Origin: Kutzneria sp. 744
GTDB lineage: Bacteria > Actinomycetota > Actinomycetes > Mycobacteriales > Pseudonocardiaceae
Reading direction: 5' to 3'
Length of the DNA stretch: 64,000 nucleotides
Assembly: GCF_000568255.1 (NCBI RefSeq)
Contig: NZ_KK037166.1
Span: 2,786,976 to 2,850,975 of the forward strand
The position numbers were made by a program, and so were the translations under genes. Below are positions 20,612 through 63,457 of the stretch, one piece after another (the stretch's first letter is position 1; each line of letters begins with the position of its first letter). The notes below the pieces were generated by a model that did not search any database, was not told where the DNA came from, and was given only the letters and a program-made list of their open reading frames with translations.

Positions 20612-20847
20612 GGCTGCCGCGCAGCTTTGCGGTCGCGCGAGCGGGCGGGGTCGACAGTGACCTCGGAGCGGATGTGGCCGGGGTTGGCGCCGAGGACCAG
20701 GACGCGGTCGGCGGGCTGGACGGCCTCCTCGATGTTGTGGGTGACGATGCAGATTCCCTTGGTGGGTAATATCTCCTGGTGCCACAGGGACATCAGCTCG
20801 GTGCGGAGGTTCTCGGCGGTGAGGACGTCCAGCGCGGAGAACGGCTC
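20612..20847 (-). pseudogene. ABC transporter ATP-binding protein fragment
   Basis: About 78 codons resemble the C-terminal half of a nitrate/sulfonate-type ABC ATPase: D-loop EPFSALD, LMSLWHQEI, H-loop ICIVTHNIEEAV, ADRVLVLGANPGHI. The Walker A, signature motif and first Walker B residues are absent. The fragment is cut exactly where the integrase remnant begins (20847/20848), marking a recombination junction. Confidence 0.7.
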
Positions 20848-20953
20848 GTGCTGATCCGCTTCGCCTATCTCGCCGTCGCCCACGCCTTCGCCGTGCTGCG
20901 GCTACTGCCAATGAGCCACTGCGAGAAGGACGTCGAGATCCTCGCTCTACGCC
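20848..20953 (+). pseudogene. IS3/rve-type integrase remnant (N-terminus)
   Basis: GTG 20848 opens 35 codons, LIRFAYLAVAHAFAVLRLLP ... EKDVEILALR, which match the start of the remnant at 31864 in the same window and the N-terminus of a common actinobacterial integrase-core transposase. The frame is cut by the insertion sequence at 20954. The C-terminal part of the same family appears, inverted, at 22496-22690. Confidence 0.7.
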
Positions 20954-21045
20954 CTCGTGTTTCGCACTTTTTGATGATCTTGACTGGTGATCGCTCTGCG
21001 AGGAACACGCTGACGGTCGGGGTTGTGGATCTTTAGGGGTAACGG

Positions 21046-21102
21046 GGGAAGCATCGACGGTGTCTGCACCACCCTCGTGAGAGTGATCCGTCGATGCTTC
21101 CC
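21046..21102 (+). promoter_or_regulatory. hairpin sequestering the transposase start codon
   Basis: GGGAAGCATCGACGG (21046-21060) pairs perfectly with CCGTCGATGCTTCCC (21088-21102) across a 27-base loop. The transposase ATG (21094-21096) lies inside the right arm. Transcripts entering from outside the element would form this 15-bp stem and hide the start codon, a known self-limiting device in IS10/IS50-type elements. Confidence 0.6.
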
Positions 21103-22422
21103 GATGGCACCATACCGGGCTCGCTGGCCGATCTGCTGGCGGTCTTCCGGCCCTGTTTCACCGCACCAACATTCTCGACGTTCCAGGGCCTTGCCCTCGG
21201 GTTGATCGCCCAGACCCGCCGACGAACCGTCTGCGGGATGCTGCTGGGCGCCGGGCTGGAACGCCTCTGGCATCACAGTCGGGCGCACCGGTTCTTCGCC
21301 GCCGCCCGCTGGAGCACCGACCAGGTCGGGTTGGCCCTGGCCGATCTAATCGTGGCCCGGCTGCTGCCCGCGGGATCACCGATCACCATCGCGGTCGATG
21401 ACACCCTGTTCAAACGCTCGGGAATGAAGGTGTTCGGCGTGGCCTGGCACCACGACGGCGCCGCGAAAGGCCCCAAGCCGATCGGGTTCGGCAACTGCTG
21501 GGTCATCGCCGGAATCATCGTGCAACTCCCGTTCCTGTCCCGCCCGGTCTGCCTACCAGTGCTGGCCCGATTATGGCGGCCCCGCCGCACCGGAAAGCTC
21601 GCCTACGCACGGGAAATGGCCGAACTCATCGCCGCCCGCCACCCCGATCGCACCGTGCACGTGGTCGGCGACGCAGCCTACGTCGGTGAGCACCTGCGTG
21701 GCCTGGCCCCCCAGATCACCTGGACCTCCCGGTTGAAGGTGACCTCGGTGCTACACGAGCTGGCCCCGCCCCACAACGGCAAGATGGGACGGCCACGCAC
21801 CAAAGGTCCCCGGCTGGGAACCCCATCCGATCTCGCGGCTACCGCGACGTGGCGCACCACGCGAGTCCGCCGCTACGGGCGCACTGACACCGTGCACGTC
21901 GCCGAGGTGATCTGCCTGTGGTACGGGTCGTTTCACACTCGCACCGTGCGCGTTGTCCTGGTCCGCGACGACAAACCGCGCACCAGCGACCGTGACGAGC
22001 GCGGCTACGGACTTCCGTTGGTCACCACCGACCTGACATCAGCGGCCGAAGACCTGGTGGCCCGCTACGCATCCCGGTGGGGCATCGAGCAAGCCTTCGC
22101 CGACGCCCGCCAAGTCATCGGAGTCGGCCAGGCCCGCAACCGGCTCCGCCGCGCCGTCGAACGGACCGTGCCCTTCGGGCTGACCTGCCTGAGCGTGGTC
22201 ACCGTCTGGTACGCCCTGCACGGACATGCCCCTGAAGACACCGCTATTCATCGGTCCCGGGCTCGGTGGTACACGACGAAGACCGAACCGTCCTACGACG
22301 ACATGGTCATCAAGCTCCGTCGGGTGATCATCGCCGCGAGATTTCGTAACCCACGCCCTGACCTGGTCACCCCGCAAGAAACCCAGGCGGTCCTCGCAGC
22401 CTGGGCAGCAGCCGGAACATGA
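21094..22422 (+). CDS. DDE transposase (IS4/IS701-like superfamily)
   Basis: This is a 442-aa transposase. Candidate catalytic residues are the Asp of ITIAVDDTLFKRSG, the Asp of HVVGDAAYVG, and the Glu of YASRWGIEQAFADAR, which fits the Y-2-R-3-E signature of IS4-like enzymes with Arg in place of the final Lys. Other conserved stretches are GFGNCWVIAG and LSRPVCLPVLARLW. It is full length with no frame break, so the element may still be active. It fills nearly the whole element between the inverted repeats. Confidence 0.85.
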   Translation: MLPDGTIPGSLADLLAVFRPCFTAPTFSTFQGLALGLIAQTRRRTVCGMLLGAGLERLWHHSRAHRFFAAARWSTDQVGLALADLIVARLLPAGSPITIAVDDTLFKRSGMKVFGVAWHHDGAAKGPKPIGFGNCWVIAGIIVQLPFLSRPVCLPVLARLWRPRRTGKLAYAREMAELIAARHPDRTVHVVGDAAYVGEHLRGLAPQITWTSRLKVTSVLHELAPPHNGKMGRPRTKGPRLGTPSDLAATATWRTTRVRRYGRTDTVHVAEVICLWYGSFHTRTVRVVLVRDDKPRTSDRDERGYGLPLVTTDLTSAAEDLVARYASRWGIEQAFADARQVIGVGQARNRLRRAVERTVPFGLTCLSVVTVWYALHGHAPEDTAIHRSRARWYTTKTEPSYDDMVIKLRRVIIAARFRNPRPDLVTPQETQAVLAAWAAAGT

Positions 22423-22690: not shown

Positions 22691-22899
22691 CGTCATCGCT
22701 GGCCTCTCCTGGGAGCTGCCCCGGCTGTGCATCGCAGCCTGGCCGAACCCCGACTGGACAGCGACCTGGTCGACTGCGCCCGGCTTGACAACGACCGCCT
22801 GGTCGTCGTCGGCGGGCAGGCGGTCTACTGGTTCCACTGGCTGCCCTCCTGACCGTCCCGCCCTGCCACGAGATTCTGGATCCGGCTTACAGAGGATGG

Positions 22900-22916
22900 C
22901 GTCCTTGGTTCACACC
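22900..22916 (+). repeat. 17-bp direct repeat, left copy (candidate attL)
   Basis: CGTCCTTGGTTCACACC is identical to 31733-31749, on the other side of the Wadjet operon and 8.8 kb away. The right copy continues into a tRNA-Val-like 3' half, so the repeat is probably the core of a site-specific integration site. Confidence 0.6.
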
Positions 22917-22968
22917 TATGGGCTCTTCCAACCGAGCTCAACAGACCTCAACTGCACCAAACTGCAGG

Positions 22969-22983
22969 TCAACGGCCCTGAAC
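22969..22983 (+). repeat. TCAACGGCCCTGAAC motif, left copy
   Basis: This 15-mer is identical to 31646-31660 and nearly identical to 31666-31680. It sits 52 bases inside the left 17-bp repeat; the right copies sit inside the right repeat. Placement just inside both ends suggests recombinase arm-type sites. The stretch from here to 23245 shows no gene and should contain the promoter of the defence operon. Confidence 0.5.
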
Positions 22984-23245
22984 GGACCTGCGTGGCGGCT
23001 GCGGCTCAGGTGAGCACTTAGGACTTCTGCGAGGAGCCGAGTCGCCCGGGTTGAGTGCTCCGCAAACGCGCTCTTCTGCCGACGAGCGTGCGGTTTCATG
23101 GCTGAGGTGTACGGCCGGAGGCATACCGGGTAACAATGTGCAATCACCGCAGCTTCGGCGCGTGCTGCGACGCAGGTGGTGGTCACGACCATGTGGGTGT
23201 CACCCGGCCCGTAGCGCTCCATCACTCAGATGGAAAACTGGCCAG

Positions 23246-23563
23246 ATGAGCCGATCGAAACGGGCGACGATCGATGCCCTGATCGCCGAGGCGACCGTGG
23301 ACTGCTACAACGACAGTGAGTGCGTCACCGGCTTCTACACCATGCTGGAGGACAACCTCGCCGTGCCGTTCCGGACCGCGGTGCTGGGAGTGGACGTCAC
23401 CGTCACCGGCGTCGATCTGGGTGTGGACGACCAGATCACCGCCGTCTGCACACGCGACCGGGCGAAGCAGCGCGTCCCGGTCCTGGATCTGCCGCTGCCT
23501 ACACCTCCGCCGGACGGCGTGCAGTGGATCGACGCCTACCGACACTGGCTGCGGGGCATGTGA
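23246..23563 (+). CDS. 105-aa protein, calcium-binding-protein-like, upstream of Wadjet
   Basis: This is a 105-aa acidic cytoplasmic protein. The sequence (VDCYNDSECVTGFYTMLEDNL, VPFRTAVLGVDVTVTGVDL, VPVLDLPLPTPPPDG, WIDAYRHWLRG) fits the small bacterial family often labelled calcium-binding protein; that label is from memory and no EF-hand is visible. ATG 23246 leads into the frame. The next gene starts at the base after its stop, so the two are tightly coupled. Its position at the head of a co-directional block ending in jetABCD suggests an association with defence, but such genes also occur alone. Confidence 0.6.
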   Translation: MSRSKRATIDALIAEATVDCYNDSECVTGFYTMLEDNLAVPFRTAVLGVDVTVTGVDLGVDDQITAVCTRDRAKQRVPVLDLPLPTPPPDGVQWIDAYRHWLRGM

Positions 23564-24871
23564 ATGCCGGACCGCGACAAGACCCACGAGTGGCCCACCG
23601 AGCAGGAGGCGTTCGCCAACCTCCGCACCGTGCTCGAACTGTGCGCTGCCGGCCAGTTGAGGTGCAGCGAGAAAACCCAGCGCCCGTCGGCGGCGACCAT
23701 CCGCACCGTCACCACGCATCTCGCGCACGGCGACTTCTACCCCGACGAACCCATCGTCGCGTTCGCCTGGCCGCTGCTGCTCCAGGCCAGCGGACTCGGC
23801 AAGCTCGACGGCGCCCGCCTTCAGTTGACCCCGAAAGGCCGAGCCGCACTCGGCACACCACCGGCCGAGACCATCCGCGAGCTGTGGCAACGCTGGCTCA
23901 CCCATGCGGTGATCGACGAGTTCAGCCGGATAGACCAGATCAAGGGCCAGAGCATCCGCAACGTGCTCACCGCCGCCAAACCGCGCCGCCAGATGGTCGC
24001 CAAGGCATTGGCCGCCTGCCCACTCGACGAGTGGATCGAGATCGACACCCTGTTCACGACCATGCGGCGCGGCAACATGAGCCCCACCATCGTCCGCACC
24101 GATAGGGCCTTGTGGAAGCTCTACCTCCAAGACCCGCAGTACGGCAGCCTCGGCTATGACGGCTTCCACGACTGGACGCTCCTGGAAGGCCGGTACACCC
24201 TCGCCGTGCTGTTCGAGTACGCCGGCACCCTCGGTCTGATCGATCTCGACTTCGTCCACCCCGACGGCGCCCGCGACGACTTCCGCGACAACTGGGGCAG
24301 CGACGACCTGGACGCGCTCAGCCGCTATGACGGCCTGCAGGCGATCCGGCTCAACGCGCTGGGCGCCTACGCCCTCGGGCTGAGCGACACCTACCACCCC
24401 GCCGTCCCAGCCCCAGCCGGGCCATTGCCGCTGAAGGTGCTGCCTAATCTCGACGTGGTCGCTACCGGCGAACTGGCCGCGGCCGACCGGCTGGTGCTGT
24501 CCGCCTACGCCGAGCAGACCGCCGACCGGGTCTGGACCGTGTCCGCCACCACCCTGCTCACCGCCATCGGTGCCGGCCGCGTCCTCGCCGAGTTCACCGC
24601 TTTCCTGACCCAGCGGGCCGAACACGACCTGCCCAGCCCGCTGACCACCCTGGTCGCCGACGTCCGCCGTCGTGCCACGCAGCTCACCGACCTCGGTCAC
24701 CCGCGCGTGATCGAGTGCGCCGATCCGGCGCTGGCCGCACTCATCGCCCACGACCGCGGTCTCCGCCCGCTGTGTCGCCCGATCGGTGACCGGCACCTGG
24801 CCATCGCGGCCGGCCAGGAGCCGGAATTCCGCAAAGCCCTGCTCCGGCTCGGCTACGTGCTGCCGTCCTAG
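23564..24871 (+). CDS. helicase-associated (XPB/Ssl2-like) domain protein
   Basis: This is a 435-aa protein with no helicase motor. The N-terminal two thirds are alpha-helical and unrecognised (WPLLLQASGLGKLDGARLQLTPKGRAAL looks like a winged-helix segment). Residues about 290-430 (VLPNLDVVATGELAAADRLV, VWTVSATTLLTAIGAGRVLAEF, then LADVRRRA ... VIECADPALAALI) match the small helicase C_3/XPB-like accessory domain. It starts directly after the preceding stop and ends 59 bases before jetA, in the same direction. This suggests a five- or six-gene operon in which it may act as a DNA-end or regulatory accessory to Wadjet. The role is inferred from position only. Confidence 0.6.
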   Translation: MPDRDKTHEWPTEQEAFANLRTVLELCAAGQLRCSEKTQRPSAATIRTVTTHLAHGDFYPDEPIVAFAWPLLLQASGLGKLDGARLQLTPKGRAALGTPPAETIRELWQRWLTHAVIDEFSRIDQIKGQSIRNVLTAAKPRRQMVAKALAACPLDEWIEIDTLFTTMRRGNMSPTIVRTDRALWKLYLQDPQYGSLGYDGFHDWTLLEGRYTLAVLFEYAGTLGLIDLDFVHPDGARDDFRDNWGSDDLDALSRYDGLQAIRLNALGAYALGLSDTYHPAVPAPAGPLPLKVLPNLDVVATGELAAADRLVLSAYAEQTADRVWTVSATTLLTAIGAGRVLAEFTAFLTQRAEHDLPSPLTTLVADVRRRATQLTDLGHPRVIECADPALAALIAHDRGLRPLCRPIGDRHLAIAAGQEPEFRKALLRLGYVLPS

Positions 24872-24930
24872 ACTCGAACGACAGGCTCGACACGACCCGA
24901 CCCCACATCGACGGAAAGCCAGCGCCATTG

Positions 24931-26394
24931 ATGGATTTCGAGGGCCTCGACCAGCTTCGGCGCAATGACGCGGCGTGGCGGCTGTTGCGGGCCGACAACG
25001 CGCCGCTCGTGCTCGGGTTTCTCGGCAAGGTGTTCGTCGACGACAACGTCCGGTCGATCTCGGCCACCGAGCTGATCGGCCGGCTGGACGACGAGCTGTA
25101 CGCCCTCAACGAGCGGCTCGGAGACGGCACGTTCCCCAAGACAGCGAAGGCCTACCTCGACGACTGGGCGGCGCCGGCGAACGGCTGGCTGCGTAAGTAC
25201 TACCCGGCCGGCTCCGACGAGGTGCACTTCGACGCGACCGTGGCCGTGGAGAAGGCCCTGACCTGGGTGGATTCGCTCCGAGAACGATCGTTCGTCGGCA
25301 CCGAGTCGCGCCTGAACACGATCTTCGAGCTGCTGCGGCAGATGGCGTACGGGGCCGAGACCGACCCGGACACGCGACTGGCCGAACTGCGCCGGCGACG
25401 GTCCGAGATCGACGCGGAGATCAACCGGGTCGCGGGCGGCGATTTCGCCGTCCTCGACACCTCGGCCCAGCGGGATCGCTACCAGCAGTTCGCCGCGACC
25501 GCCCGCGAACTGCTGGCCGACTTCCGCGAGGTCGAGGCCAACTTCCGCGGCCTGGACCGGGCGCTTCGCGAGCGCATAGCCGGCTGGCAGGGCAGCAAGG
25601 GCCAGCTCCTCGACGAGGTGGTCGGCAACCGCACCACCATCGCCGACTCCGACCAGGGCCGCAGCTTCCAGGCGTTCTACGACTTCCTCCTCTCCCACGA
25701 GCGCCAGCTGGAGCTCGCCGAGCTGCTCGCGAAGGTGCAGTCTCTGGAGGCCGTGGGCGAGCCCGACCCCCGCATGCGCCATGTCCACCACGACTGGCTC
25801 GACGCGGCCGAACGCACCCAGGCGACGGTGCGGCTGCTGTCGGAACAACTGAGGCGATTCCTCGACGACCAGGTGTGGCTGGAGAACCGCCGGGTGATGG
25901 ACATTCTGCACAGCATCGAGTCCTCCGCGCTCAAACTGCGTGAACACCCGACGCCGACGATCACCTGCGACCTCGACGGCACGGCGCCGACCGTGGCGCT
26001 GCCCATGGAGCGGCCGCTCTACACGCCCAAGGTGAAGGTTCCCCTGAACAGCGCGGACATCACCGCGGCCGACGAGGACCTCGACGCCTCGCCGCTGTTC
26101 GAACAGGTCTACGTGGACCGTGAGCGCCTGTCCGGGATCGTGCGCGGCGAGCTGCGGGAACGTGCCCAGGTCGGGCTGGGCGAGGTGCTGGGGCGTCGGC
26201 CGCTGGAGCAGGGCATGGCCGAGCTGGTCGGTTACCTCTCGCTGGGTGACCCGGCGTTCCAGGTCGTCTTCGACGAGACCGCGCGCGAGCAGGTGGAATG
26301 GGTCGACGAGACCGGTGCGGCCCGGGTCGCCACCATCCCCCGGGTGACCTTCACGCGGGTCGCCGGCCGCGGTCTTGTCGGTGGGACTCCTTAA
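24931..26394 (+). CDS. jetA: Wadjet anti-plasmid system protein JetA (DUF3375)
   Basis: This is a 487-aa protein. The start of DUF3375 is clear ([20 protein letters not shown]), with [30 protein letters not shown] and a long helical region. JetA is the kleisin-like subunit that bridges the JetC ATPase heads, and with JetB forms the MukF/MukE-like part of the loop-extruding complex that recognises and linearises plasmids. GGAAAG lies about 12 bases before ATG 24931 (a TTG at 24928 is also in frame). The stop is separated from jetB by one base. Length is normal. Confidence 0.93.
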
Positions 26395-26395
26395 C

Positions 26396-27004
26396 ATGAG
26401 CGGCGTGACCACGTCGATACGCCGGGACGAACTCGACCTGCCGCTGGTCGTCACTCACCTGATGAAGGGGGTGGTCTACGCGGACAGCCACGAGAAGGTG
26501 TGGCGCCATCTGCTGCCGCTACAGGCCCAGGTGCGTGACTACGTCGGGGTCATGGGGCTGACTGTCGTGATCGACGAGGCCGAGGGCTACGCCTTCCTGC
26601 GGTCGAAGTTGGACAACGAGGAGGACGGGCCGCTGCCGCGGCTGATCCCACGACGTGCCCTGTCCTTCCACGTGAGCCTGGTGTTGGCGCTGCTGCGCAA
26701 GAAGCTGGCGGAGTTCGACGCCTCCGGCGCGGAGACGCGACTGGTCCTCACCCGGGAGCAGCTGGTCGAGATGGTGCGCATGTTCCTGCCCGAGAGCAGC
26801 AACGAGGCGCGGCTGGTCGATCAGATCGACACCCACCTCACCAAGATCGTCGAGCTCGGGTTCCTGCGGCGGATCATCGGGCAGGATGCCGCGTACGAGG
26901 TGCGCCGCATACTCAAGTCGTTCGTCGACGGCCAGTGGCTGTCCGAGTTCGACCAGCGGCTCGCCGACTACACCGCACTGCTCGACGGGGAGGGCGAGGA
27001 CTGA
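26396..27004 (+). CDS. jetB: Wadjet anti-plasmid system protein JetB (DUF4194)
   Basis: This is a 202-aa MukE/KITE-like winged-helix subunit. The DUF4194 core is seen as [68 protein letters not shown], and a C-terminal FLRRI ... [13 protein letters not shown]. It binds JetA near the SMC heads. ATG 26396 follows jetA by one base; in-frame upstream starts would overlap jetA. Its TGA overlaps the ATG of jetC (27002-27006), so expression is coupled. Confidence 0.92.
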
Positions 27005-30000
27005 TGGCGGGTCCGTCCACTGTGCCTGGTCTCGACGCCGAGGGGGCCGACCTCGCCGGCTATCGCCTGGACCGCTTGGAGGTGTACAACTGGGGCACCT
27101 TCGACCAGCGGGTGTGGACATTCCACCCCGAGGGCCGCAACAGCCTGCTGACGGGCGACATCGGCTCCGGCAAGTCCACCATCGTGGACGCGATCACCAC
27201 GCTGCTGCTGCCCGCCCACCGCATCTCCTACAACAAGGCGGCCGGCGCCGAGGCGAAGGAGCGACACCTGCGGTCCTACGTCCTGGGCTACTACAAGGCC
27301 GAGCGCAACGAGGCGACCGGCGCCTCCCGACCGGTCGGACTGCGGGACCGGCGTGCGTTCTCGGTTGTCCTTGGCGTCTTCGTCAATCGCGGCTACGACT
27401 CGACGGTGACACTGGCGCAGGTGTTCTGGTTCCGCGACGCCTCCGTCGGCCAGCCCGACCGCTTCTTCGTTACCGCGGAGCGCGGCCTCACCATCGCGGG
27501 CGACTTCACCGAGTTCGGCGGGGACATCGCGGCGCTCAAGCGCAGGCTTCGTAAGCAGGACGTCCGCGTCCACGATCATTTTCCCGCCTACAGCAAGGAC
27601 TTCTGCCGGCGGCTGGGCATCGACTCCGAGCAGGCCATGGAGCTGTTCCACCAGACGGTGTCGATGAAGTCGGTCGGCAACCTCAACGACTTCGTCCGCT
27701 CGCACATGCTGGAGCCGTTCGACGCCGCCGACTGGACCGACCGGCTGGTCCGCCACTTCGAGGACCTGACCCGAGCGCACGAGGCGGTGCTCAAGGCCCG
27801 TACCCAGCTCACCCAGCTCGAACCGCTGCTCGCCGACTGCGACGCATACGACGAGTTCGACCGGCGGATCGGGGCGGCCAAGGCCGAACGCGACGCACTG
27901 CGGTTCTACTGCGCCGACCGGAAGGCGACGTTGCTCGACGCCCGGGTCGCCGCGCTCACCATCGAGATCGGCGCACATCAGACCGAACTGGACTCGACGA
28001 AAGGCGAACTCGATCGGTTGCGCCGTAAGGAAACGGACCTCACCGTGCGACGCGCGGGCTCCGGTGGCGACCGCATCGCCCAACTCGAAGCCGACATCGC
28101 GACCGAGGAGCAGGAACGCGACCGCCGGCAGGCACGGCACGCCCGTTACCACGAGTTGCTGGCGTCGGCGGCGTTGCCCGCCGTGACCGAGCCCGCCCAG
28201 TTCACCGCCCGGCAGCGCGACATCGCGGAGCTGGCAGGCTCCCTGGACCAGGCGCAGGCCGAGCTCCAGAACCAGCTCACCGATCTCACGGTCGAGCAGC
28301 GGGAACTCGACGGTGAGGCCAGGGAGCTGAACGCGGAGCTGCTCAGCCTGCGCGAGCGGCGCAGCAACATCCCCAAACGCAGTCTGGACGTGCGGGACAC
28401 GCTGTGTGCGGAGCTGAACGTCGACCCGGCCGCGCTCCCGTTCACCGGCGAGCTCATCCAGGTGCGCGCCGACTGCGCGGAGTGGGAAGGCGCGGCCGAG
28501 CGGCTGCTGCACGGCTTCGGCCTGTCCATGTTGGTGGACAGCGAGCACTACGACGCGGTGTCCGACTGGATCAACGACCGCCACCTCGGCGTCAAACTCG
28601 TCTACTACCGGGTGCCCCGACGTCAGGGCCCGACCGCGCCCTCCCCGCTGACCGAGCGGTCCCTGCGCACCAAGCTGGAGATCAAGGAGTCGCCGTTCTC
28701 GGACTGGCTGGACCGCGAACTGGCCCACCGCGCCGACTACGAGTGCGTGGACACCATGCTCGAGTTCCGGCGCGCCCCGAAGGCGATCACCAAGGCCGGG
28801 CAGATCAAAGGCGCTCGCGGCCGACACGAGAAGGACGACGCCCGTCGCATCGACGACCGCCGTCACTACGTGCTCGGCTGGGACAACCAGGCCAAGATGG
28901 ACACGCTGCTCGACCAGGCCAACCGGCTGCAACTCCGGTTGCGTGAGCTGGCCGTGCTGGCGGCCGGGGTCGGCAAGGACCTCGAGGACCGGCGCCGGCT
29001 CGCCACCACGCTCACCTTGCTGGCCGAGTTCGGCTCCTTCACCGAGGTCGACTGGCAGTCCTCGGTGAACCGCATCGCCGAGCTCGACGGCGAGAAGTGC
29101 GGCCTCGAACAGCAGTCGGACGAGTTGAAACGGCTCACCCAGGAGCTGGCGGCCGTCGGCGCACAGATCAAGAAGGCGGAAACCGCCCAGAGTGCGGCGC
29201 AAACGCGGCTCGGGAAGCTCAGCGGCCAGTGCGAAGACGCCGAGAGGCAACTGCGCGACACACGGAGCACCTTGGACGAGCCCGCGTGCGAGTCCGCACG
29301 GGCGTTTTTTCCCATGGTGGACAAGCGAGTCGCAGCCAGAAGCCTGGCCACCCCGGAGGACTGCGACGCCTGCCGCGTCGACGTGAACGAGGACATCACC
29401 ACGGAGATCGATCGACTCACCGGACGGCAGAACAAGGTCGCGAACCGGGTGACCGGAAAGATGAGCGACTTCCGCAAGGCGTATCCGCTGGAGACCGAGG
29501 ACTTCGACAACTCCGTGCAGTCCGCGGGTGAGTACCGGGCCCTGCACGGCCGGATCGCCTTGGACGACCTGCCCCGGTTCGAATCCGAGTTCAAGACCTA
29601 CCTCAACACCAACACCATCCGCGACATCGCCGGGTTCCACTCCCAGCTGACGAAGCAGGCCGACCTGATCAAGCGGCGGATCGAGACCATCAACGACTCG
29701 CTGGTGGACATCGACTACAACCCGGGCCGGTTCATCCGGCTCGAACCGCATCCCACGGTCAGCGTCGAGATCCGCGACTTCCGCAGGGAACTGCGGGACT
29801 GCACCAGCGGGTCCCTGCACGGCGACGAGTCGGACCAGTACTCCGAGCAGAAGTTCCTCCAGGTCAAGGCGCTCATCGAGCGGTTTCGGGGGCGGGAGGG
29901 CCAGACCGAGCCCGACCGGCTGTGGACCCGCCGGGTCACCGACGTGCGCAACTGGTTCACCTTCGCCGCGTCCGAGCGGTGGCGGGCCGACGACACCGAG

Positions 30001-30396
30001 CACGAGAACTACACCGATTCCGGCGGCAAGTCGGGCGGCCAGAAGGAGAAGCTGGCCTATACGATCCTGGCCGCGTCGCTGGCCTACCAGTTCAAGCTCG
30101 ACTGGGGCGCGCCGAAGTCGAAGACGTTCCGGTTCGTGGTGATCGACGAGGCATTCGGCCGGGGCTCGGACGAGTCGACGCGGTTCGCGCTCGACCTGTT
30201 CCGGCGCCTCGGCCTGCAACTGCTCATCGTCACGCCGTTGCAGAAGATCCACGTCATCGAGCCCTATGTCGCGGCGGTCGGATTCGTGGACAACCAGACC
30301 GGTGACTGCTCACGGGTGCAGACCCTGACCATTGAGGAGTACCACCGCCGCCAGCTCGCGCACGCCCTCGGGTCCACGTCGGCACGGGGTGACTGA
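27004..30396 (+). CDS. jetC: Wadjet anti-plasmid system SMC-like ATPase JetC
   Basis: This is an 1130-aa MukB-like SMC protein. The Walker A loop GDIGSGKS is at residues about 51-58, soon after the family opening [12 protein letters not shown]. Two long charged coiled-coil stretches flank a central hinge region (about residues 460-640). The C-terminal head carries the ABC signature [12 protein letters not shown] (about 1006-1017) and Walker B VVIDEAFG (about 1045-1052). It should hydrolyse ATP to extrude DNA loops and deliver small circular DNA to JetD. All motor motifs are intact, and it overlaps jetB and jetD by one base each. Confidence 0.95.
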
Positions 30397-31592
30397 TGGC
30401 GGCAGCCTCCGCCTGGACCGTGCCCGGTGACGTCGTGAGCAGGCTGCGGCGACGTTGGGACCGGGGCGAGTTGCTGTCCCGGCTCGCGTCGGGTGCCCCG
30501 TGGGAGCCGCTGGCAGTCGGCCTGCGCGGGCCGAGCGCACAGGACACCGCCGCGCGCTTCGACGAGGCGCGAGCCTGGATCGACCAGTGGCGCAGGGCCC
30601 GGCATCTCCGGGTCGAGACGCGCACGGTCGGCGGCCGTGTCCTGGGCGCGAACGAGCTACCCGCTCGGGCCTGGGTCGACTCCTACGAGCAGTTGTGGGC
30701 CGCGCTTGGCGTCCACGCCGAGGTTCGAACCTTCATGGGCCTGCTGGACACGACCCGGCGACGGGCACCGGCGATCGCCGACTGGATGGTCGTCAAGCCG
30801 ATGGAGGTGCTCGGCCACCAGGGCGGCTGGACCCGACTGGTCAACACCGTGCTGTGGATCGACGCGCACGCCCGTCCCGACATGTATCTGCGGCAGGTCG
30901 ACGTGCCCGGCGTCGACACCAAGTTCATCGAGCGCCATCGCACGATCCTGGCCGCGTTGCTGGACCGGCAACTCCCGGAGCACCGGGTCGACCGCACCAG
31001 GCCACCGTCTGACTTCGCCGGGCGGTACCAGTTTCGCGCCAAACCCGCGTATGTCCGGTTCCGTCGGCTGTCGGACGGCGACGGCTTCAGCGAACTCGCC
31101 GTCAGAGTGCCCGAACTGGCCGACCGGCCGCCCACGGCGCGCACCGTGTTCGTCGTCGAGAACGAGGTCAGCTACCTGGCCTTCCCGCCCGTGGCGGACG
31201 CTGTCGTGATCTTCGGCGAGGGCTACGCCGCCTCCCGGCTGGAACCATTGCGGTGGCTGGCCGGCAAGAACCTCGTCTACTGGGGCGACATCGACACCCA
31301 CGGCTTCGCGATCCTCAACCGGGTGCGCCAGACTTTCGGCCACTGCCGGTCCATGCTCATGGACCGGGCCACGCTCCTCGCGCACGAAAGCCACTGGGTC
31401 GACGAGCCCAGCCCGGTCAGCGGCTACCTGGAGGCACTGCTGCCCAACGAAGCCGCGCTCTACAACGACTTGGTCGAAGACGCCCTCGGCCGTGCGGTGC
31501 GCCTCGAACAGGAACGCGTCTCCTACGCCGCCGTCGAACACGCCGCGGCAGCGCACGGCTCCACGATGCAGGACAGTCCCAAGCGGCCATAG
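30396..31592 (+). CDS. jetD: Wadjet anti-plasmid nuclease JetD (DUF3322/DUF2220)
   Basis: This is a 398-aa TOPRIM nuclease subunit related to topoisomerase VI A/Spo11. The N-terminal arm and CAP-like winged-helix region (about 1-240) are followed by the TOPRIM core, with the acidic FVVENEVSYLAF (about residues 252-263) and YWGDIDTHGF (295-304) providing Glu and D-x-D metal ligands. JetD cuts the DNA entrapped by JetABC, linearising plasmids. The motif set is complete, so the system should be active. The start overlaps the jetC stop. It is the last gene before a stem-loop and the right-hand repeats. Confidence 0.93.
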   Translation: MAAASAWTVPGDVVSRLRRRWDRGELLSRLASGAPWEPLAVGLRGPSAQDTAARFDEARAWIDQWRRARHLRVETRTVGGRVLGANELPARAWVDSYEQLWAALGVHAEVRTFMGLLDTTRRRAPAIADWMVVKPMEVLGHQGGWTRLVNTVLWIDAHARPDMYLRQVDVPGVDTKFIERHRTILAALLDRQLPEHRVDRTRPPSDFAGRYQFRAKPAYVRFRRLSDGDGFSELAVRVPELADRPPTARTVFVVENEVSYLAFPPVADAVVIFGEGYAASRLEPLRWLAGKNLVYWGDIDTHGFAILNRVRQTFGHCRSMLMDRATLLAHESHWVDEPSPVSGYLEALLPNEAALYNDLVEDALGRAVRLEQERVSYAAVEHAAAAHGSTMQDSPKRP

Positions 31593-31645
31593 TCGGCGCG
31601 TGAGAATCGCGGTCGGGGAGCAGCGCGGGGAGCAGACTGGCGCGC

Positions 31646-31680
31646 TCAACGGCCCTGAACCGCATTCAACGGCTCTGAAC
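31646..31680 (+). repeat. two copies of the TCAACGGCCCTGAAC motif, right end
   Basis: An exact copy of the left motif lies at 31646-31660 and a one-mismatch copy (TCAACGGCTCTGAAC) at 31666-31680, 20 bases apart. They lie 50-90 bases inside the right 17-bp repeat and are candidate recombinase arm sites. Confidence 0.5.
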
Positions 31681-31686
31681 AGACCC

Positions 31687-31725
31687 GCGCCGACCTGTAG
31701 AAATGACATTTCCGCAGGTCGGCGC
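31687..31725. terminator. 11-bp stem-loop after jetD
   Basis: GCGCCGACCTG (31687-31697) pairs with CAGGTCGGCGC (31715-31725). The 17-base loop itself contains a small AAATG/CATTT inverted repeat. It lies 94 bases after the jetD stop and is a plausible operon terminator, or part of the recombination site. Confidence 0.55.
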
Positions 31726-31732
31726 ACTATGT

Positions 31733-31749
31733 CGTCCTTGGTTCACACC
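31733..31749 (+). repeat. 17-bp direct repeat, right copy (candidate attR)
   Basis: CGTCCTTGGTTCACACC is identical to the left copy at 22900-22916. The last nine bases of the repeat merge into the anticodon region of a tRNA-Val-like 3' half, consistent with integration at a tRNA gene. Confidence 0.6.
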
Positions 31750-31782
31750 GAAGAGGTCACTGGTTCGATCCCAGTATCGCCC
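31741..31782 (+). tRNA. tRNA-Val(CAC)-like 3' half, remnant
   Basis: The sequence TTCACAC reads as an anticodon loop with CAC. It is followed by CCGAA (3' anticodon strand), a variable loop, a perfect T stem-loop (ACTGG-TTCGATC-CCAGT) and ATCGCCC, the 3' strand of a GGGCGAT acceptor stem. No 5' half (acceptor, D-arm) precedes it, and the 5' anticodon strand is imperfect. It is therefore a non-functional partial copy, most simply the trace of an element that used tRNA-Val as attachment site. It carries no encoded CCA end. Confidence 0.6.
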
Positions 31783-31863
31783 TGTGCGCGCCGAGAACTA
31801 CATCCGCGCAGGTGACCAGGCATCGGCCTGATGCCTGGTCACCGTCCAGCATGATCGCGGCTC

Positions 31864-32290
31864 GTGCTGATCCGCTTCGCCCACCTCACCGTCATCCAAG
31901 CCTTCGCCGTGCTACGACTGTCGCGCAAGACCGACTGCGAGAAGGGCATCGAGATCCTTGCGTTACGCCATCAACTCACGGTCTTGCACAGACAACTCGG
32001 CAATCGGCGCCTACAACTGCGCCCTGAGGACAGGGCATTGCTCGCTGCCCTGCTCGTGCCCCTGGCCCGCACAACGTTGCACCGACTCCGGCTGTTCGTC
32101 AGCCCGGACACAGTGCTGCGATGACATCGGGACCTGGTGAAACGCCGCCACGCCCGTGCAAGCAAGCACCGTAGGCCCGGGCGTCCGCGCACGGTCGCCT
32201 CGATCCGCCGCCTCGTCCTGCGCCTGGCAACCGAGAACCCCTCCAGGGGTTACCGGCGCAGGTCGGCGCGCACCGCGGCGACTGACGCGA
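31864..32290 (+). pseudogene. IS3/rve-type integrase remnant with nonsense mutation
   Basis: GTG 31864 opens LIRFAHLTVIQAFAVLRL ... EILALRHQLTVLHRQL and continues LVPLARTTLHRLRLFVSPDTVLR to an in-frame TGA at 32122-32124. The same frame then carries on as HRDLVKRRHARASKH ... GRPRTVASIRRLVLRLATENPSRGYRR, the next part of the family, so the TGA replaces a Trp codon. The gene is cut off before the catalytic core, about 32290. Its first bases match the remnant at 20848. Confidence 0.75.
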
Positions 32291-34831: not shown

Positions 34832-35083
34832 TCACATCGCGGCGGCCGTCGATGCCGCCAGATCGCGCTCGGTGGCGAGGCTGCCGGGCTGGGCCAGCCA
34901 GATCGAGGCGGTGCCGTCAGCGTCGATGACCTCGTCGGCGATCCCATCCAGGTGGTGGCGGGTCTGAGCATCGGCAGGCAAGGCGGCGAGGCGGTCGGAG
35001 GTCTGAGCGACACCGAGCCGCTTGTGCTTGCGCCAGATGGTGATCCGGGGCGTGGAGGGGCTCGCGCGGATCCGGTAGGACAG
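34832..35083 (-). pseudogene. ChrB-like protein remnant
   Basis: The minus strand encodes LSYRIRASPSTPRITIWRK, HKRLGVAQTSDRLAALPAD, and AQPGSLATERDLAAS before a stop at 34832. This resembles the N-terminal domain of ChrB-type chromate-resistance regulators (Y-R-x-P-S ... W-R-x-L-K-R-LG ... ALP). It lacks a start codon and the C-terminal domain, and abuts a plus-strand remnant at 35083. Confidence 0.5.
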
Positions 35084-62147: not shown

Positions 62148-63457
62148 GCGGTCACCAGCTTCTGGTAAAGGGTGGGCACCTTGCCCCGCTCGGTGCGAAC
62201 GAACTCGTGCGGCTCGACGTGCTCCACGGTGAACCCGAGGCAGCGCGGCCCGGTGACGATCTGGTTGAGCTCCACGGTGTCGGAGAAGGCGGCGACCACG
62301 GCGTCCACGGTGACGTCCCGGGGCGTGCTCGGCGACAGGAGCAACCGCACGCGATAGCGGTTGACGTCCCACAACACCTGGAACTGGCAGTCGGCGGGGT
62401 CGGTGATGCCGACCAGGGCGAGCCGCGACATCAGCTGGTCGGCGGAGACGGTCTCGGAGTCCACGTTCAGCGACTGCCGGGCCCGGCCCAGCAGCGTCAG
62501 CACGGCGGCCTGGCTGCCACAGCGGCACGGCTGCCGGCTCAGGCGGCCCCGATCGCCGATGGCGTAACGAAAAAGGGCCATGCCGGTGTCGCTCAGCGGC
62601 GTGACCAGCAGCTCACCCTCCTCGCCGTCGGCCACGGCGAGCCCGGTCTCCTCGTCCACGACCTCCACCACCACGGCGTCCTCGTGCACGTGGTGGTCGG
62701 TGCCCGTCTGCCACCGGCACTGGTAGCCGATGGGCCCGCTCTCGGTGGTGGAGTAGGCCAGCGAGCGCACGGTCAGCTCGGGCAGGGCGTCGGTGAGCGC
62801 CTTGACGCGGCTCAGGCCGAGGCTTTCCCCGATATACAGGAAGGTTCGCAGCGGGGCGAGCTGCTCCGGGGGCGTGCCGGTGATCAGGTCGACGCCGTAG
62901 CCGGGCGGCGCGGCCAGGGTGTCGATGGAGTGCTCGGCGATCATCTTCGCGGTGTCGGCGACGCTGGTGACGTTGCCCAGCGGGTACACCCGCGCACCGA
63001 GCAGCCGGGTGATCTCCTGGGTGAACAGGAAGGAGCCGTTGAGGTCGGCGCCGTAGAGGCAGTTCGCGAGCCGGTGCGGCGGCTCGGGCAAGGCGGCGCG
63101 TAGCCCGCGGGCGCCGAGCGCGGACACCTGCTCGTTGAATTCCCAGGAGTGGTACATCATCTTGACCTTGCTGGAGGTTCCGCTCGACCGCAGCACCATG
63201 CCGGGCCGGTCGCCGTCGAGCAGGAACTCGTCCGAGCGCGGCGGGCAGCCGTCGGCCAGCGCGCCCGGGGTCAACACGGGCAACGACGGCAGGTCCTCGA
63301 CCCGGTGCACGGAGTCCAGCCCGGGCCAGCGGCGCAGCACGGCGGGGGTGCGACGGGCCGCGGTCACCAGCTGCGTGAAGTTGTGGTCCCGCAGCCGCTG
63401 GATCTCCTCCCGGCCGGTCGTGTCCAGGTCGGCGGCGAGCCGAATGCCGGTGTTCAT
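62144..63457 (-). CDS. adenylate-forming enzyme, phenylacetate-CoA ligase-like
   Basis: This is a 437-aa PaaK-like member of the ANL superfamily. The phosphate loop is in MVLRSSGTSSKVKMMYHSWE, followed by YSTTESGPIGYQCRW (A5-type) and YAIGDRGRLSRQPCRCGS (GD motif). It activates a carboxylic acid, probably aromatic, as acyl-AMP. GGAGG lies six bases before ATG 63457. The next gene overlaps its stop. It sits beside a DAHP synthase, suggesting a shikimate-derived aromatic substrate. Confidence 0.85.
   Translation of the reverse strand: MNTGIRLAADLDTTGREEIQRLRDHNFTQLVTAARRTPAVLRRWPGLDSVHRVEDLPSLPVLTPGALADGCPPRSDEFLLDGDRPGMVLRSSGTSSKVKMMYHSWEFNEQVSALGARGLRAALPEPPHRLANCLYGADLNGSFLFTQEITRLLGARVYPLGNVTSVADTAKMIAEHSIDTLAAPPGYGVDLITGTPPEQLAPLRTFLYIGESLGLSRVKALTDALPELTVRSLAYSTTESGPIGYQCRWQTGTDHHVHEDAVVVEVVDEETGLAVADGEEGELLVTPLSDTGMALFRYAIGDRGRLSRQPCRCGSQAAVLTLLGRARQSLNVDSETVSADQLMSRLALVGITDPADCQFQVLWDVNRYRVRLLLSPSTPRDVTVDAVVAAFSDTVELNQIVTGPRCLGFTVEHVEPHEFVRTERGKVPTLYQKLVTA

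Follow-up and report, generated by a model that had tools for sequence, protein, structure and literature searches.

How can a defence operon that has no recombinase of its own come to lie between attachment-type repeats, beside a fragment of a tRNA gene? The question is raised by a stretch of 64,000 nucleotides of Kutzneria sp. 744 (the window; positions 2786976-2850975 of a genome that is a single contig of 11.65 Mb), in which an 8.8-kb island, unit W (window 22908-31749), carries a Wadjet type I operon. Positions below are those of the window unless marked as genomic. Comparing sequences, we conclude that W is probably an integrase-less mobile cassette carrying a complete Wadjet I, the distal one of five tandem units accreted at a tRNA-Val(CAC) gene, and that its terminal arms, together with a 9-bp core, would be substrates for the integrase of the first unit, unit A.

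The island is bracketed, as the original prediction had it, by an exact 17-bp repeat, CGTCCTTGGTTCACACC, at 22900-22916 and 31733-31749. Each copy is composite: the final 8 bp of an end arm precede a 9-bp core, GTTCACACC, which comes from the tRNA-Val(CAC) anticodon arm. At the left boundary a 12-nt remnant of the preceding unit's end arm, ATGGCGTCCTTG (22896..22907; its row diverges further left in an alignment of 16 end-side sequences), is followed by the core (22908..22916) and by the start arm of W (TATGGGCTCTTCC..., 22917..23041). At the right boundary the end arm of W (31614..31740), which includes a hairpin formed by an inverted repeat at 31687-31725, runs into a second core (31741..31749) and, from the same position, into a 3' part of tRNA-Val(CAC) (31741..31782). 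All of these features lie on the plus strand. A 15-mer, TCAACGGCCCTGAAC, said to lie just inside both ends, is exact at 22969 in the start arm and at 31646 in the end arm, but the further copy claimed at 31666 carries one mismatch. At up to two mismatches the window holds three matches to it, against 0.15 expected, a number reached in none of 100 shuffles.

W thus has attachment-type ends, with the core and its own arm on both sides, and to that extent the proposed attL/attR pair with arm sites stands. The left repeat, however, is not a tRNA junction. Because only ATGGCGTCCTTG of an end arm is left there, beside transposase sequence, it reads as a unit-to-unit junction, and tRNA sequence is touched by the right repeat only. 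W starts with TATGGGCTC after the core, not with GAAGAGGTCAC, and therefore does not rebuild the tRNA 3' half, unlike unit A. The transposase gene flanking W on the left (21094..22422, plus strand; PF13546, DDE_5) is probably part of what eroded the neighbour's end arm. On either side of the W region, at 20842-20956 and 31858-31972, we also noted sequences that resemble the beginning of one and the same transposase gene and are 81% identical to each other over 115 nt.

Inside these ends, the predicted Wadjet operon is complete: JetA, JetB, JetC and JetD are present in order, each near full length against its best PADLOC model. The genes jetA (24931..26394; JetA1, E 8e-213, model positions 1-478 of 480; DUF3375), jetB (26396..27004; JetB1, E 2.5e-94; DUF4194), jetC (27004..30396; JetC1, 1532 bits, model positions 13-1118 of 1123; AAA_29 and SbcC_Walker_B) and jetD (30396..31592; JetD1, E 3.1e-136; DUF3322 and JetD_C) overlap or almost abut. 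Ahead of them lie a CcbP-like gene (23246..23563; PF11535, E 1.3e-4, just over the cut-off, on the longer frame 23051-23560) and a helicase-associated gene (23564..24871; Helicase_C_3, PF13625, E 2.1e-9). The start of the CcbP-like gene comes from our codon-usage gene-calling script, as do gene calls outside annotated records. All six called genes of W are on the plus strand and none is transfer-like by Pfam; a small extra frame on the minus strand (22938-23225) was called as well and lies outside the Pfam scan. Scans with Pfam and PF00589 revealed no integrase or transfer remnant in W, and none of the 21 PF00589 matches in the genome falls within it, so the island indeed lacks a recombinase. 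The operon would be expected to act against plasmids. As a side observation, relatives of the helicase gene, which with the CcbP-like gene forms the pair preceding jetA (23246-24871), occur in 14 plasmid records. Among eight plasmid stretches with such relatives, three (Cupriavidus) have Jet-like genes downstream, one annotated and the others by weak tblastn, and in two (Rhodococcus) the CcbP partner is present and the annotation shows no Jet gene in the vicinity.

Where, then, is the tRNA gene to which the right end belongs? The intact tRNA-Val(CAC) gene lies at genome 2614864-2614936, 195 kb upstream of the island. Window 31741-31782 is identical at 42 of 42 nucleotides to its 3' part (genome 2614893 onward) and the following base differs, in line with the claim that the right repeat merges into a tRNA-Val(CAC) 3' half. 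The 3' part has three copies in the genome (at 2614894, 2744089 and 2818717) and the 5' half a single exact one (at 2614864); a second 5'-half match, with two mismatches on the minus strand, falls inside a tRNA-Val(GAC) gene. ARAGORN called no tRNA in the window, and Rfam gave no match up to E 1, as would be expected where only a 3' part is present.

The 195 kb between the tRNA gene and W are divided by further junctions of the same kind. The 17-mer has five exact copies in the genome, all on the plus strand and clustered within 113 kb (genome 2706253, 2726023, 2744080, 2809875, which is window 22900, and 2818708, which is window 31733); a reversed control pattern has none. The core is common to tRNA-Val(CAC) and the array junctions. 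To its left stands either the tRNA 5' half or an end arm, and to its right either the tRNA 3' half (GAAGAGGTCAC...) or a start arm (TATGGGCTCTTCC...). Read from these junctions, the order is apparently tRNA, A (91.4 kb), E2 (19.8 kb), E3 (18.1 kb), B (65.8 kb), W (8.8 kb) and tRNA 3' part, about 204 kb in total. The arms are shared across units: the start arm of W is 92.5% identical over 134 nt to that of E2 and 82.0% over 167 nt to that of E3, its end arm is 85.0% identical over 127 nt to that of A, 84.3% to that of E3 and 78.7% to that of E2, and arm matches reach down to E 4e-51. The idea of an element integrated at a tRNA-Val site therefore keeps its tRNA-Val(CAC) anchor, but instead of a lone insertion W appears to be the outermost of five units in an array.

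Which integrase could act on such ends? Five of the 21 PF00589 matches lie in the array. One (at genome 2615152) belongs to the tyrosine integrase of unit A (genome 2615053-2616396, 447 aa), whose gene ends about 120 bp from the intact tRNA-Val(CAC) and looks intact; it contains TGLRWGE, HDLRHT and LGHKRKDVDDIYSH, which we take to be the R, HxxR and Y boxes of tyrosine recombinases. Another, at 2744346 in unit B, is a C-terminal part that is 96.6% identical to the A integrase over 206 aa and abuts a transposase gene. The search for an integrase elsewhere, which the original prediction had suggested, thus likely leads to one intact gene beside the tRNA and a truncated copy in B. The three remaining matches (2637979, 2641217 and 2644912) come from a repeated gene inside unit A. 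That gene is the first of a two-gene block (377 and 545 aa) present there in three near-identical tandem copies (genome 2637436-2647342; L014:10461 to L015:367), and a fourth copy lies at genome 9138832.

Relatives of the A integrase keep company with the same tRNA. A scan of named genomes gave 17 loci with such relatives, one of them in a record whose title names a Melainabacteria metagenome bin. The tRNA-Val(CAC) 3' part is present in every one of the 17 and the intact gene in 14; the tRNA is several kb from the integrase in two loci (L032 and L039) and close to it in the others. Unit E3 holds a split integrase relative, 44.8% (299 aa) and 38.6% (88 aa) identical to the A integrase, the larger piece matching no Pfam family at 1e-4. 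Its own relatives occur in 145 of 390 genomes of the family at E up to 1e-40. We considered this type as the integrase of the cassettes and set it aside: with flanks of 1.5 kb, none of the 30 loci returned had a blast hit to the arms of W or E2 (the 30 include E3's own, whose start arm falls outside the locus), and five had a tRNA-Ala, which is suggestive only. A phage or plasmid origin of W was also set aside. The patterns used matched no A-integrase relative among viral contigs, the arms are absent from the six viral contigs that contain the 16-mer, and three plasmid and nine phage records match only the core and tRNA part of W's right end.

The terminal arms of W recur in other Kutzneria and in one other genus; its interior does not. 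We aligned 16 end-side sequences, W's eroded left side among them, and ten TATG starts from G000, G221, G224, G226 and G178 (our genome labels). End-side rows were chosen by YCCTT[GC] left of the core, which left out intact tRNAs, second tRNA 3' parts with other left flanks (G222, G221 C35 and G224 5566167) and G178 C39 at reversed position 34899; an end arm of G224 with a changed core (stretch position 62759) was not counted. Most arms are conserved over roughly 130 nt, beyond which similarity stops. Two end arms match W over only 87 nt (G221 C35) and 73 nt (the second in G178 C35), and the start arm of W is matched at all ten TATG junctions, once over only 44 nt. The start junction occurs at ten places in four of the 390 genomes, three of genus g1 and one of g12; G224 and G221 have two TATG junctions each and G178 three. 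In G221, G224 and G178 arms of the W type end units with other cargo, and the end arm is also found in G226. These three genomes hold integrase-less units with the same kinds of ends. The interior of W gave no blastn match at 1e-4 in the fetched arrays and a single 63-nt match (3.5e-4) in the 17 named loci. In the fetched stretches the same junctions separate units of different content; repeats standing without an insertion boundary, the observation named in advance as refuting, were not among them.

Genes g8-g10, left of the tRNA, have homologs beside the tRNA in G221, G222, G223, G224 and G226, and g11 in the first four; on the right of the tRNA the relatives share no synteny. In G226 the tRNA and an END-arm|core|tRNA-3'-half site stand 168 kb apart, and the first genes of that stretch are like those of A (integrase 87%, g22 96%). 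Beyond the last such site, G226 resembles the DNA that follows the intact tRNA on the right in G222 (74% identity over 459 nt) and in G221 (73%), as if an array had been inserted where the site was once empty. The matching DNA may itself belong to an element, since G221 and G222 carry another tRNA 3' part downstream. In the window's genome, nothing substantial matches the DNA that lies to the right of the tRNA in G222, and the flank further right gives scattered matches only. Relatives without the island were expected to carry a single repeat copy. Indirectly they do, in that END-arm|core|tRNA-3'-half sites without W are seen, for example in G226 and G224, but a relative with exactly W's site minus W was not found in the fetched stretches. 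Two side observations concern the same tRNA. On another contig of G226, an end arm and core are followed by a broken tRNA-Val 3' part (L099:10083; G226:C1:1274083). A second tRNA-Val 3' part lies 28-38 kb behind the intact tRNA in G222 (L069-L071) and G221 (L079-L082), with a CCGGTNNC left flank instead of an end arm; this is perhaps another element type using the same core.

From the junction structure, the arm homology across units and two genera and the full-length Wadjet genes, we infer how W may have moved. A tRNA-restoring unit with an integrase would take the tRNA-Val(CAC) gene; short units consisting of tRNA 3' half, integrase and end arm do exist, 3.2 and 3.5 kb long, in G221 and G178. 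This would create an END|core|tRNA-3'-half site, where TATG units without an integrase could then recombine; the same type of site would be left behind, so that the array would be able to grow and shrink there. W would have docked at such a site. The integrase of unit A could excise and integrate it in trans, or move several units together in cis, and transfer from cell to cell would ride on a putatively conjugative unit such as A. A TATG unit inserted directly at the tRNA would split the gene. Across the fetched stretches, each of the ten TATG starts is preceded by an end arm (a remnant in the case of W) and none by the tRNA 5' half; for this reason TATG-start units, W included, may need a neighbour that restores the tRNA, both in order to dock and as a source of integrase. 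Some bias remains in that count, since stretches were picked by a pattern holding six end-arm bases with three mismatches allowed; that pattern would barely admit a junction with the tRNA on its left if the start were otherwise perfect, and would miss one whose start had changed. More tentatively, and with somewhat less than even confidence, we propose that TATG units are a class in their own right, cassettes without an integrase for which docking is possible only behind a helper unit that restores the tRNA and gives both landing site and integrase. The result would be an integron-like platform, anchored at a tRNA, through which genera of Pseudonocardiaceae exchange cargo that includes defence systems (Wadjet, pPIWI-RE, NLR-like proteins).

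Several observations weigh against reading W as a mobile cassette in a five-unit array. The neighbour's end arm on its left is worn down to 12 nt. Unit B is ambiguous and may be partly chromosomal, because homologs of several B genes lie to the right of the tRNA in G223. W was not seen at an attachment site in another genome, a result with no family-wide JetC search behind it. To the right of W's tRNA part, the DNA has no match in any fetched relative and the relatives themselves differ from one another, so that the outer right boundary rests on arm and tRNA sequence. Finally, an exact 17-mer pair is by itself not rare.

The most serious rival, which we consider unlikely, is that W is a fossil, left over from an earlier integrative element and now fixed without integrase and transfer genes, its arms persisting through recent loss and not through use. 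The worn arm of the left neighbour fits this, as do the broken integrases of B and E3, the transposase sequence left of W and the transposase fragment to its right. Yet W is a compact unit of six genes, its JetABCD is full-length and both its own arms are conserved; repeated independent decay explains less well that three other genomes have integrase-less units with these end types and different cargo. A second possibility is that homologous recombination between attachment and arm repeats or insertion sequences, not an integrase, placed Wadjet between junction copies. Shared arms of more than 100 nt could recombine, and unit B is bounded by two near-identical transposase copies in opposite orientation (95.7% identical; genome 2744894-2746222, where the copy cuts the B integrase, and window 21094-22422, the copy left of W). 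We nonetheless think this very improbable, as the switch between tRNA 3' part and TATG start falls exactly at the 9-bp core in all aligned junctions, as site-specific recombination predicts, and an integrase adjoins the tRNA.

Is the repeat itself more than chance? The window holds 18 exactly repeated 17-mers, many of them overlapping; order-1 Markov simulations of 64 kb gave 1.2 on average and at least one in 19 of 30 runs, and 16 of 300 simulated 10.6-kb stretches had one. At up to three mismatches CGTCCTTGGTTCACACC has two matches in the window, a number that 2 of 100 shuffles reach. The 17-bp pair taken alone is thus weak evidence in a GC-rich window and only moderately unusual; it is raised above chance by the five clustered plus-strand genome copies with conserved flanking arms. 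An unbounded island with a chance repeat, to which the occurrence of such 17-mers at this base composition and the arm-less viral contigs might point, we take as refuted by the one-strand clustering, the strength of the arm matches and the 42-nt tRNA identity.

The other units carry varied cargo. Unit A holds a DISARM-type set, with DrmD, DrmA and DrmB by PADLOC (genome 2681054-2693959; L016-L017); between DrmD and DrmA lies g58, outside the family scan and presumably a methyltransferase by its NPPF motif. Other genes crossing the borders of the 20-kb stretches, among them g22, g73, g89 and g102, also fall outside that scan. Unit A further encodes a type I methyltransferase, an Orf5/mREase-like gene, an RHS-repeat protein and, together with Phage_integrase, transfer-type genes by Pfam (coupling-protein-like TrwB_AAD_bind, Replic_Relax and NLPC_P60/SLT). 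E2 has NACHT, NB-ARC, CATRA/GT4-conflict, CHAT, UbiA and methyltransferase proteins, and E3 NNH7-NACHT and NB-ARC/TPR proteins; the label of defence rests on these domains, because PADLOC gave one weak TPR match only for ten E2 and E3 proteins. A TATG unit of G178 (L095:2137-15721; G178:C35) carries a pPIWI-RE system of pPIWI, DinG and PD-(D/E)XK. Elsewhere TATG units carry ALF and trypsin/LGFP proteins (G178), a molybdopterin dehydrogenase (G221) and FAD hydroxylase, AAA and MFS proteins (G224), so their cargo is not confined to defence.

These findings offer a testable route by which a recombinase-less Wadjet could move, in which the integrase of a neighbour would act on conserved terminal arms. 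Behind one tRNA, genes of the DISARM type, Wadjet genes and NLR-like genes lie in separate units, and two classes of unit, tRNA-restoring ones with an integrase and non-restoring cargo units, could explain how cargo builds up without damage to the tRNA. The arms also give a sequence handle for spotting more cassettes. Our literature search found no paper on an integrase at tRNA-Val in Pseudonocardiaceae.

How does W compare with known systems? Its JetABCD order is that of Wadjet type I, with the CcbP-like and Helicase_C_3 genes placed before it. Of the tandem islands described elsewhere, going by what the cited accounts state, the Dehalococcoides ssrA islands (PMC3146451) also stand behind one RNA gene with conserved sequence beside each repeat, and 15 of them have no integration module; they differ in their serine recombinase, tmRNA gene and reductive dehalogenase cargo. 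Accretion of Streptomyces actinomycete integrative and conjugative elements (AICEs; PMC9513070) likewise puts several actinobacterial elements at one tRNA, defective ones being possibly helper-mobilised, but AICEs have traB and other signatures, of which W has none by gene content. PAISt of Streptomyces turgidiscabies (PMC4057263) is actinobacterial too, with a short (8-bp) core, a tyrosine recombinase and modules between internal attachment copies, and is described as excising in modules and capturing plasmids with attachment sites. It has two modules at the bacA 3' end, whereas the W array has five junction-defined units at the anticodon arm of tRNA-Val(CAC) and two start types, known from sequence alone. 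W appears to work like a cis-mobilizable element (CIME), as a variant of tandem accretion. In the account of accretion among CIMEs and integrative conjugative or mobilizable elements (ICEs, IMEs; PMC5704250), CIMEs are decayed elements that kept attL and attR; like them, W is a unit with attachment sites and without integration or transfer genes, in tandem with an integrase-bearing element at the same site, here unit A with the same core and the ambiguous B in between. W differs in that units of its type share terminal arms across unrelated cargo and two genera, and in that a TATG start leaves the tRNA unrestored. That units of unrelated cargo share these arms suggests that they form a class of their own, and W shows no integrase or transfer remnant of the kind that decay of an ICE or IME might leave.

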